Source: an uncultured cyanobacterium
GTDB lineage: Bacteria; Cyanobacteriota; Cyanobacteriia; PCC-6307; Cyanobiaceae
Assembly (NCBI GenBank): GCA_913047395.1
Contig: CAJWUF010000006.1
Location: forward strand, 1-39,547
Direction: 5' to 3'
DNA: 39,547 nt
Shown: piece by piece, positions 10,326-13,821 of the stretch
Position numbering within the stretch: position 1 is the stretch's first letter
Layout: the number at the start of each line of letters is the position of its first letter
Position numbers and translations under genes: made by a program
Notes under the pieces: model-generated
The model's database searches: none
What the model saw: only the letters and a program-made list of their open reading frames with translations
Told to the model about the DNA's origin: nothing

Positions 10326-11048
10326 TCATGATTGTGATCTGTATTGCAGCGTGAGTTGTTTAATGGCTAGATCTCGATTAGGGCCGTTAGGCAGACTTTG
10401 GCTGAGGTTGGTCAGGTTTGACTGACTACTGGGGGTGCCGATGCAGCCTAGGGCTAGCAAGGCAGCTCTTGCTGTATTTTTGGATCCTTGTCTTACTACT
10501 TCGGCAATACGGTCGCTGATGGCGACTCCATCGCGCCGTTGCAGAAGATGAATGGTTGCCAATACCACTCGTTCGCGTATGTCGTTGAGCAATTCCTCGC
10601 TGAGGTTCAGTAGATCGTCATCGTTGAGTTGGTATGCCTTGAAGCTCAGTAACTCCAGTCCGGCTAAGCGCATGGCTTCTGAAGGCTCACTTAAAATTGC
10701 TTTTAGAAGTGAGCTTGGCAATATGGCTCCCCAGCAAGTAAGTGCTTGCAGCACTTTCAGCTCTAGCTCTTTTCCATCTTCCAATTGTTGTATTAGCCAA
10801 TCTCTAGCTTGAGGTTGATGGCAGAGTCCGGCTGCATGAATTAGTTCTGGCTGTTTTCCGTGTTGTTTGAGCAGTACCTTTAATGTTGTCCAGCCTTGAT
10901 CAGCCAGTAAGCCGAGTTGTTCAGCTAGGGCTTTGCGTAAATCAGCAGAAAGGCTGAGGGAGTAAACCTCCCCCAGCCATTTCGGCTCCAGAGGAGCCTT
11001 GCGCACATTGTTGAGTCGTTCCCAGAGAACGGCTTCATCGCAGCTCAT
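10326..11048 (-). CDS. HEAT-like alpha-helical repeat protein in the nitrite gene cluster
   Basis: This 240-residue protein appears to consist almost entirely of paired helices, such as LRKALAEQLGLLADQGWTTL, EAMRLAGLELLSFKAYQL and NTARAALLALGCIGTPSS. That resembles HEAT / PBS-lyase HEAT-like repeats. It has no signal peptide, membrane segment or catalytic motif that I recognise. It begins 14 bp after the focA stop on the same strand, so it is probably the last gene of a nirA - small ORF - focA - HEAT operon. Context suggests a helper for nitrite uptake or nitrite reductase assembly. It may be the unnamed or nirX-type gene that accompanies nirA and focA in Prochlorococcus, but I cannot confirm that identity from sequence alone. 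Confidence 0.75.
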   Translation of the reverse strand: MSCDEAVLWERLNNVRKAPLEPKWLGEVYSLSLSADLRKALAEQLGLLADQGWTTLKVLLKQHGKQPELIHAAGLCHQPQARDWLIQQLEDGKELELKVLQALTCWGAILPSSLLKAILSEPSEAMRLAGLELLSFKAYQLNDDDLLNLSEELLNDIRERVVLATIHLLQRRDGVAISDRIAEVVRQGSKNTARAALLALGCIGTPSSQSNLTNLSQSLPNGPNRDLAIKQLTLQYRSQS

Positions 11049-11062
11049 GAATGTGTTTTAGA

Positions 11063-11965
11063 TCAGCGAGCACCCAGTTCGGCTGCTAGTTCACGCTCTA
11101 GCTTCTCATCATGAATCGTAGGCAGCACGTTGCCCATCTTGGTGCGATGGGTGCTGTAGAACAGCATGCCGATAAACACCATGCCTCCAACGATGTTGCC
11201 TAGGGTGACGGGAATGTAGTTCCAAATGATCACCTGACCAAAAGAAACGCCGGAGCCAAGTAAGGGGCCAGCGGTGTGCAGGAACATGTTCACCACGATG
11301 TGCTCCATTCCCATGGTTTGGAACGCGGTGATCGGTAGCCAACAGGCAAGGAGTTTGCCTGGCACGCTCTTGCTCACCAGCGCCATGGTTACGCCGAGGC
11401 ATACCAGCCAGTTAGCGATTAACCCACGCAAGAAGGCTAGGAAGAAACCAGTGCTGCCTAGATCCTGGTACTTCGTGACTACGTTGAGCTCATTCACTGC
11501 AGCAATTTTTGCAGCTATAGCTGGCCAGCCTTTACCGCCAGCAACAGGGTCAACAGACCAGCCGCTGGTGAGGCTGATGCTTATTAAGAGCGCTACTAGT
11601 GCGCAGCCGATGAAATTGCCGATCCATACCCAGGTCCAATTACGGAATGTGGCTCGCCACGTGCTTTTCCCGGCCCAGGTAGCCATTGGCAATAAGGCGA
11701 AGTTGCCAGTTACCAATTCCATGCCGAATAGCACGATGCTGGCAAAACCAAAGGGGAAGAGAACAGAGCCAAGGAAGGGCATCCCAGACTGAATGCCTAC
11801 GGTGATAGCTAGGCAGGTGGCTAGGCCAAGAATCGCTCCGGAGTAGAAACCACGTAGTAGCAGATTCTTGATACTGACATTTGATTTTTTGCCGCCGGCG
11901 GTAATCATGCCGTCGACGAGTTCATTAGGTAGGACGTAGTCCATCTGTGATGCATTTACATCCAT
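11063..11965 (-). CDS. focA: Formate/nitrite transporter family channel (nitrite uptake)
   Basis: FNT-family proteins are pentameric inner-membrane channels for small monovalent anions such as nitrite or formate. The 300-residue protein has about six hydrophobic segments. Family-typical stretches include SGAILGLATCLAITVG near residue 41, FGMELVTGNFALLPMATWAG near 79, FLRGLIANWLVCLGVTMAL in the middle and MGMEHIVVNMFL further on. The ATG at 11963-11965 gives MDVNASQMDYVLP. Lying next to nirA, nitrite is the likely substrate rather than formate. In picocyanobacteria this gene is known mainly from nitrite-using Prochlorococcus and some Synechococcus. Confidence 0.92.
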   Translation of the reverse strand: MDVNASQMDYVLPNELVDGMITAGGKKSNVSIKNLLLRGFYSGAILGLATCLAITVGIQSGMPFLGSVLFPFGFASIVLFGMELVTGNFALLPMATWAGKSTWRATFRNWTWVWIGNFIGCALVALLISISLTSGWSVDPVAGGKGWPAIAAKIAAVNELNVVTKYQDLGSTGFFLAFLRGLIANWLVCLGVTMALVSKSVPGKLLACWLPITAFQTMGMEHIVVNMFLHTAGPLLGSGVSFGQVIIWNYIPVTLGNIVGGMVFIGMLFYSTHRTKMGNVLPTIHDEKLERELAAELGAR

Positions 11966-12011: not shown

Positions 12012-12155
12012 TTAGCCGCTGATGCGATTCATCAGGCGTGAGAAGAAGTCCTTGCTACCGCCTTCACGATTTATGGCAGGCTTCTCGCTTCCGCTGGTGC
12101 TTAACCAGTTGACGAAGCGAGAGAACAGATCACTAGATTTGGGAGACGATGTCAT
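12012..12155 (-). CDS. 47-residue small protein with two copies of the NirA C-terminal tail motif
   Basis: An ATG at 12153-12155 opens a 47-codon frame ending in TAA at 12012-12014, lying between the nirA stop and the focA start on the same strand. Residues 8-22 read SDLFSRFVNWLSTSG. Residues 34-47 read SKDFFSRLMNRISG. The NirA tail, residues 521-535, reads SDPLSRFMNWFSNLG, so the three segments are clearly related. The similarity is also visible in the DNA, which points to duplication of the nirA 3' end followed by selection or decay. The linker between the two copies is polar. No strong ribosome binding site precedes the ATG. It could be a genuine small partner protein or a relic of duplication. 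I know of no named family for it. Confidence 0.55.
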   Translation of the reverse strand: MTSSPKSSDLFSRFVNWLSTSGSEKPAINREGGSKDFFSRLMNRISG

Positions 12156-12192
12156 GGTGATAGATAAAAGAAAGGTGGTCAGGGACGGCCGC

Positions 12193-13821
12193 TTAATTTG
12201 ATGGGCTGTCGTTTTGGCCCAAGTTGCTGAACCAGTTCATGAAGCGTGAGAGAGGGTCGCTGGCTTGACTGGTGTCGTTGCGGGGTCGTGCGCCGAAGCG
12301 TTCGATAAGTAGTTCCCGCAGCACGCTTTTCAACTCGCTGTTAGGAATGCCTTTACGGTGCAGTTCCCCCACCCGGGCATCGGGGCCTTGGGTGCCGCCA
12401 AGGCTGAGGTCATAGGCCTCAACCATGCCTTTGCCTCCTTCAGGTGCACGGCTTTTGGTGCCTGTGAGTCCGATTGCACCCATGTAGGCCTGACCACAGC
12501 TGTTCGGACATCCAGTCCAATGGACCTTCAGTTCCTCTGGTAGCTCGAGCTCCTCATCAAGTTCACGGGCCATCTTTATGGCCTGATCTTTTGTATTGGT
12601 GAGGGCGAAGCTGCAGTAGGTGTTGCCGGTGCAGGAGACGGTGCCTGCGGCAAAGGAACCGGGTTCGAGCGAAAAACGTTGTAGTAGTGGATCAGCTCGG
12701 AAACTTTCCAGCTTGGTGCTGGCTAGACCCACCACGATTACGTTCTGGTCTTCTGTGAGACGAACCTCGCCACTGCCATAGTTAAGGCTGGCAATAGCGA
12801 GATCTTGGAGATCTTCTGCGCTTAGCCGGCCTACGGGTACATGCAGTCCGGCGTAGTGGAGCCCTTCTTGTTTTTGAGGGTGGATGCCGTAATGAGATCT
12901 TGGTTTGTCGTTGAAGATTGAGCCTGGATCAGGGGTGAGGGGCCCAAAACTCTCCTCCACCATGGTGCGAAAGTTTTCTAGGCCCACACTGTCGAGGTAC
13001 ATACGGAAGCGGCCCTTTGGGCGATTATTTCGCTCACCGTTGTCACGCCATAACTTCAGCATGGTTGCGGTCATGCGACAGATCTCATCTGGCTTTATCC
13101 AGGCGTTAAGAGGCAGTGCATAGTCGTTCATCTGGGAGGAGAGGATTCCTCCGAGCCAGACACCGAAACCCATTACTCCATCGCGCTCTACTGGATGAAA
13201 AATGATGTCGTTATGGAGAAGGAAGTTGTCGCGGGCACCTGCAACTGCGGTATTCCACTTGCGGGGCAGGTTGGAGAATTCATGGTTGCCTGCACCGTTA
13301 TTGGTGAGGAAGTTTTGCAACTCAATTGTGTATGGCCGTGTATCAACGATTTCAAGAGGATCGATTCCTGCTAGTGGATTTCCTGTGACGTTGCGGGGGT
13401 TATCAAAACCTGATTGAATTGTGTTAAGACCTGCCTCTTTAAGACGTCTAAGGATCTCTGGGAGGTCGCTGAGTAGAACACCACGAAGTTGTAGGTTCTG
13501 GCGGGTTGTGATGTCGCAACTACCATCATCGCCGTAGCGGCCCACGATTGAGGCCACTACTTTCAATTGTTGGCTATTTAGGACGCCATTTGGCACCCTG
13601 AGCCGGAGCATGAACTTGCCAGGTGTCTTGGGGCGCCAGAACATTCCGTACCATTTAAGGCGTAGTTCTAGATCTGTTTTGTCTACTTGCTCCCAGCCGA
13701 TCTTTGCAAATGATTCGATTTCAGAGCCAACTTCTAGGCCATCTTTGGCAGCCTTATTCTGCTCAATCTTATTTAGCTTTTTGCCTTCTATATATGGCTT
13801 TATAGGAGAAATTGTAGTCAT
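12193..13821 (-). CDS. nirA: Ferredoxin-nitrite reductase with C-terminal tail extension
   Basis: NirA reduces nitrite to ammonium with six electrons from ferredoxin, using siroheme and a [4Fe-4S] cluster. The cluster/siroheme cysteines are visible as C397 and C403 (CTGNTYC) and C438 and C442 (CPNSC). Other family motifs are DITTRQNLQLRGV near 103 and a TGNPLAGIDP stretch. At 542 residues it is longer than the usual roughly 510. The excess includes a tail after about residue 508, with SDPLSRFMNWFSNLG at 521-535, which recurs twice in the small ORF just downstream. The ATG at 13819-13821 gives MTTISPIKPYIEG. It is divergent from sirB-cobA, whose product pathway supplies siroheme. A weak NtcA-like site lies about 155 bp upstream. 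Confidence 0.96.
   Translation of the reverse strand: MTTISPIKPYIEGKKLNKIEQNKAAKDGLEVGSEIESFAKIGWEQVDKTDLELRLKWYGMFWRPKTPGKFMLRLRVPNGVLNSQQLKVVASIVGRYGDDGSCDITTRQNLQLRGVLLSDLPEILRRLKEAGLNTIQSGFDNPRNVTGNPLAGIDPLEIVDTRPYTIELQNFLTNNGAGNHEFSNLPRKWNTAVAGARDNFLLHNDIIFHPVERDGVMGFGVWLGGILSSQMNDYALPLNAWIKPDEICRMTATMLKLWRDNGERNNRPKGRFRMYLDSVGLENFRTMVEESFGPLTPDPGSIFNDKPRSHYGIHPQKQEGLHYAGLHVPVGRLSAEDLQDLAIASLNYGSGEVRLTEDQNVIVVGLASTKLESFRADPLLQRFSLEPGSFAAGTVSCTGNTYCSFALTNTKDQAIKMARELDEELELPEELKVHWTGCPNSCGQAYMGAIGLTGTKSRAPEGGKGMVEAYDLSLGGTQGPDARVGELHRKGIPNSELKSVLRELLIERFGARPRNDTSQASDPLSRFMNWFSNLGQNDSPSN

Follow-up and report, generated by a model that had tools for sequence, protein, structure and literature searches.

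In the AmtB–GlnK system, a channel and the soluble protein that sets its activity share an operon, and GlnK closes AmtB. According to the part of PMC4390861 used here, the NitM nitrite channels of MIT9313 and CC9311 were inactive alone in S. elongatus and became active after removal of their last 21 residues, and the NitM of CC9605, which naturally lacks this C-terminal segment, was active alone. The authors proposed an activator acting on the segment; that part of the report supplies a target and a predicted activator, identifies none, and does not discuss a small ORF. NirP1 of Synechocystis, a small protein of cyanobacterial nitrite assimilation, is 76–86 residues long, with three Trp and a single conserved Cys; it binds NirA and does not occur in Prochlorococcus or in most marine Synechococcus (PMC10907346). 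For LLI Prochlorococcus, the parts of two reports used here (PMC10470740, PMC6370341) describe type I NirA in strains with focA and a divergent type II NirA in strains without it, one of which, MIT0917, releases nitrite; those parts mention neither a C-terminal NirA tail nor a small protein. In WH7803, nirA, a small ORF (SynWH7803_RS12335), and nitM are co-transcribed, and the ORF was upregulated 194- to 239-fold (PMC9430850). Its product of 44 residues has two predicted helices, a function recorded as unknown, and noted similarity to NirA of CB0101 and NATL2A, and an origin in nitrite reductase was suggested; the report gives no family, focA linkage, motif repeat, tail analysis, or mechanism.

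The window (the whole 39,547-nucleotide stretch analyzed here, from an uncultured member of Cyanobiaceae) carries on its minus strand nirA (12193..13821), encoding a 542-residue ferredoxin-nitrite reductase (NF007125, E = 5e-263; Pfam NIR_SIR), and focA/nitM (11063..11965), encoding a 300-residue FNT-family nitrite channel identified by Pfam Form_Nir_trans (E = 5e-64) and by its linkage to the small gene described below. Between the two, the ORF listing places a 47-codon frame on the same strand (12012..12155), 37 bp downstream of the end of nirA, whose product, MTSSPKSSDLFSRFVNWLSTSGSEKPAINREGGSKDFFSRLMNRISG, is a two-helix small protein (SP). NirA ends in a tail that includes the motif SDPLSRFMNWFSNLG, starting at residue 521 (residues 521–535, 12217..12261, minus strand). 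The NCBIfam ferredoxin-nitrite reductase model (513 positions) stops at NirA residue 515, and the tail of approximately 27 residues is therefore extra. The first-pass annotation had pointed out the motif, the downstream ORF, and an enzyme unusually long by about the size of the tail, all of which were confirmed. Directly 3′ of focA lies a gene for a HEAT-repeat protein (10326–11048, minus strand), as in most nirA–SP–focA loci, and it is possibly a further member of the operon. The frequency of NtcA-type sites in the window was not clearly above expectation.

The SP of the window and that of WH7803 (L127) align as one family, whose members have 44–49 residues and are encoded directly upstream of nitM/focA. 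SynWH7803_RS12335 is the same gene, in the same place, with two predicted helices, co-transcribed and strongly induced (PMC9430850). The earlier belief that the ORF had not been described thus does not stand, as it is already known in one strain, WH7803; the literature searched contained no description of the SP family, of how it is tied to focA, of its repeated acquisition by NirA, or of the phage copies. SP resembles NirP1 in being a small protein of cyanobacterial nitrite assimilation; we rejected it as a NirP1 homologue, as it has 47 residues, no Cys, and one Trp.

The 47-codon ORF is a genuine and conserved gene. A profile search found intact SP frames in approximately 100 of 251 Cyanobiaceae genomes, and the alignment-based dN/dS pooled over 27 independent close pairs was 0.225 (bootstrap 0.17–0.30). 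The ratio was highest at the N-terminus (0.47) and lowest in the two motifs, namely helix 1 (DLFSRFVNWLS, residues 9–19, 12099..12131, minus strand; 0.17) and helix 2 (DFFSRLMNRIS, residues 36–46, 12018..12050, minus strand; 0.15), both of which follow the consensus D-x-F-S-R-x-x-N-x-x-S. The S, N, and W of helix 1 were kept in 94–99% of 95 sequences, and the D, S, N, and S of helix 2 in 99–100%, with its M also nearly invariant. AlphaFold predicted, at modest confidence (pLDDT 68), helices at residues 5–22 and 35–46 joined by a linker. The helices are amphipathic (moment 0.65–0.67), and their polar face (S, R/K, N) is conserved as well as the hydrophobic face. SP had no match in Pfam, NCBIfam, or PHROGs, and a PDB sequence search returned insignificant matches only. 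Outside Cyanobiaceae, a search of 386 genomes gave a single match (E = 8e-4), taken as chance, and a weak match in the genome of the window, on contig C14, was discarded as a chance antisense frame within argG. A second, unlinked two-motif SP protein is encoded in the genome of the window on contig C90 (L073 3692–3829). This old paralogue, which starts MDxFSAFxNWFS (L073, L072, L049, L051), is intact in this genome and two others; the unlinked paralogue of MIT0701 carries stop codons.

The similarity of the NirA tail to SP exceeded chance at both levels, the protein score being matched by none of 5000 shuffles and the DNA score by 0.05% of codon shuffles. Between the two SP motifs, the protein score was matched by 0.02% of shuffles, and the DNA did not align above chance (17% of shuffles equaled it). 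The proposal of a motif shared by the tail and both SP segments is thus upheld for the proteins; the accompanying statement that their DNA also aligns has to be limited to the NirA tail and SP motif 1, because the DNA of motifs 1 and 2 no longer aligns. A shared motif and locally alignable DNA would also be expected from a duplicated and decaying nirA 3′ end, the alternative raised in the first-pass annotation, for which disruption of the ORF in relatives or unconstrained substitution would have spoken. Nearly all relatives, across many genera, have an uninterrupted frame, and dN/dS is low. SP is also present where NirA is tailless, as an old paralogue, and as a phage-borne copy. Since the family is intact and under selection, both motifs are conserved, and the NirA tail shares the motif, the relic idea is refuted for the family, and we regard it as almost certainly wrong.

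A further point in favor of such a relic comes from LLI Prochlorococcus, where SP lies within a 203-bp unit that covers the NirA tail and the start of focA and is tandemly repeated in 1–3 copies; only the extra copies, which may be young, could be neutral. The LLI SP starts with a FocA-like peptide because the unit reaches the focA start. SP number varies among the tandem loci (L146 5554–5959 and L034 3193–3801).

Across the genomes, SP tracks focA. A separate SP gene beside focA was found in 99 of 117 focA-positive genomes versus none of 134 focA-negative genomes (Fisher 1e-51, uncorrected for phylogeny). In two of the remaining focA-positive genomes (G214, G049), the motif is confined to NirA, and the other 16 lack both forms, two of them at contig ends. 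SP is directly upstream of focA in the loci examined that have both (approximately 140 loci, many from the same species in two collections), and it adjoins focA even where nirA is set apart by other genes (L044, L045, L048, L052, L053). At least five genera (g5, g10, g30, g48, g56) include nirA-positive genomes without focA and SP beside genomes with both. As it is absent from nirA-positive genomes that lack focA, SP follows focA and not nirA. The tie to FocA suggested earlier is thereby stronger than could be known from one locus, and the reading centered on nirA does not hold. The linkage could also reflect transfer of an operon block instead of physical interaction, and the orphan SP paralogues, which sit away from focA, count against SP being a partner of FocA.

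These distributions bear on whether SP might regulate NirA directly, in function like NirP1, with the NirA tail as an intramolecular copy. The usual adjacency of nirA, the fusion of the SP motif to NirA, the published likeness of SP to NirA proteins (PMC9430850), and the lack of NirP1 in Prochlorococcus and most marine Synechococcus (PMC10907346) are all in keeping with such a role. However, the sole SP copy among focA-negative genomes is an unlinked paralogue in G122 (1/134, or 1/83 of those with nirA and without focA), and AlphaFold did not place the tail on NirA, albeit from a shallow alignment. We consider direct regulation of NirA quite unlikely.

The NirA tail is, on sequence evidence, the SP module in cis: the profile built from SP matched it genome-wide at E = 1.4e-7, in addition to the shuffle test. 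At least four lineages have a NirA with one or both of the motifs. The tail was recognized in 23 of 115 genomes with nirA and focA versus 0 of 83 with nirA and without focA (Fisher 1.6e-6, uncorrected for phylogeny), and all 23 tailed genomes are thus focA-positive. Its make-up differs among lineages, with motif 1 in LLIV and relatives, both motifs in LLI, and motif 2 in Synechococcus UW140, UW105, and AG-670-F04 and in Aphanocapsa. On the NirA tree, the tail state needs approximately six changes, and the independent pairs are too few for a sign test; the 23 genomes represent only a few independent gains, which is counted against the best explanation. In seven focA-positive loci (L042, L145, L148, L154, L192, L130, L164), a tailed NirA occurs without SP, and there the tail stands in for the missing protein. 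Among LLI Prochlorococcus, focA-positive NirA has the full module, and both tail and SP are missing from focA-negative loci, e.g., AG-402-O21 (L182); their tailless NirA is presumably type II. NirA of other low-light Prochlorococcus ends in an amphipathic-looking segment below recognition by the SP profile. Nitrate reductase was dismissed as the factor behind tails, as narB-positive genomes occur both with and without one. At G025 C4:7518–9047 (L080), NirA lies inside an open frame of 1296 residues, possibly a larger fusion. In the structure that AlphaFold predicted, from a shallow alignment, for a natural LLI NirA fusion, the tail was disordered (pLDDT 26–39) and undocked from the enzyme, as expected if the partner of the tail lies elsewhere.

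The FocA of the window ends with VLPTIHDEKLERELAAELGAR (11066..11128, minus strand), the conserved charged segment of alpha-cyanobacterial NitM, which, judged by its conservation, would be of the kind described as autoinhibitory in MIT9313 and CC9311 in the part of PMC4390861 used here. NitM homologues in other cyanobacteria lack this segment. Among the genomes compared, G071 and G221, which we take to be MIT9313 and CC9311, carry SP, and G215, presumably CC9605, lacks both the segment and SP. Both are also absent from a relative, G586 (likewise L136). In the genus of G215, 2 of 2 NitM proteins without the segment are also without SP or tail, and 19 of 21 with the segment keep one of them (p = 0.024), one of the 19 being a shortened SP frame (G587), with shared ancestry of the losses likely. 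The co-loss was probably a single event. The pairing of segment and SP holds for most genomes and for the CC9605-like ones and fails where a full-length NitM stands without SP or tail, namely in Ca. Synechococcus spongiarum (10 genomes of sponge symbionts), G023, G054, and G076, as well as in Synechococcus L117 and L120. SP is therefore not always needed, and for these exceptions either another mechanism is at work or the activation model fails. In the Synechococcus relatives L117, L118, and L120, focA is intact and SP is lost or, in L118 and L120, visibly decaying.

We tentatively propose, at somewhat less than an even chance, that the NitM channel opens on binding SP or the NirA tail, and that NirA is tethered when the motif is in cis. 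SP would work with the NitM/FocA of its own operon, each of its helices serving as an amphipathic recognition motif that would bind the cytoplasmic face of NitM. Binding would lift the block imposed by the charged C-terminal segment, and NitM would open only while the nitrite-assimilation operon is expressed. A tailed NirA would dock at NitM and license it, coupling nitrite entry to reduction. This arrangement would be like AmtB–GlnK in principle, although the proteins are unrelated and SP is proposed to open its channel, whereas GlnK closes AmtB. The activator reading is the simplest one to unite the focA linkage, the cis and trans copies, the autoinhibited NitM, and the co-loss in CC9605, and SP is the best candidate for the factor that switches NitM on. 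A functional motif common to an enzyme and a small partner, as first suggested, is borne out by the conserved family, its low dN/dS, and the motif on NirA.

Alternatively, along the lines of the first-pass annotation, the motif might serve simply as an adaptor, gathering NirA at NitM or on the membrane with no influence on channel opening. Docking of this type agrees with the same motif occurring in trans and, solely where focA is present, in cis on NirA, as well as with the amphipathic helices and the undocked tail, but most Synechococcus have SP and a NirA without a tail. With no tail, NirA cannot be recruited to the channel by SP there unless SP binds NirA as well; plain membrane binding is further at odds with the conservation of the polar face. 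Because the NitM C-terminus is known to be autoinhibitory, channel activation is the more specific hypothesis, and docking without gating appears unlikely. If SP helped the NitM pentamer to assemble or stabilized it, with no gate involved, the nitM neighborhood and co-transcription would fit equally. Yet full-length NitM was inactive without SP and active minus its 21 C-terminal residues in the part of PMC4390861 used here; since this truncation restores activity, NitM can assemble without SP, and we find an assembly role very unlikely.

Two IMG/VR contigs (57.5 and 81 kb) with identical loci encode an SP, MNSIKPSNDLFSRFVNWFSNSGSDYILADSKVGGKDFFSRLMNRISTM, near psbA (L217 3998–4144, IMGVR_UViG_3300037634_005704; and L216), and the 81-kb contig carries terminase, head, polymerase, and primase genes. 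No focA was found on these two cyanophage contigs. Because the phage keeps SP without its operon partners, we argue for an action of SP in trans, on proteins of the host, and the phage copy is a candidate new cyanophage auxiliary metabolic gene. Another viral locus (L215, IMGVR_UViG_3300026265_000014) has focA followed by nirA, with the NitM segment intact, a tailless NirA, and no SP recognized. Taken further, the activator reading makes the helix motif a transferable key (free SP, NirA tail, or phage copy) that unlocks NitM, so that nitrite is let in only when cell or phage can use it, a generalization that we hold to be somewhat doubtful.

How the autoinhibited nitrite channel is switched on in the ocean's most abundant phototrophs has been an open question since 2015, and SP is a specific candidate for this role. 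The phage SP may contribute to nitrogen supply while the host is infected. The presence of tail and SP versus neither is a molecular difference between nitrite-retaining and nitrite-releasing types of Prochlorococcus and, if the motif is indeed such a key, having or lacking the module would go some way to explaining which Prochlorococcus keep nitrite and which release it.
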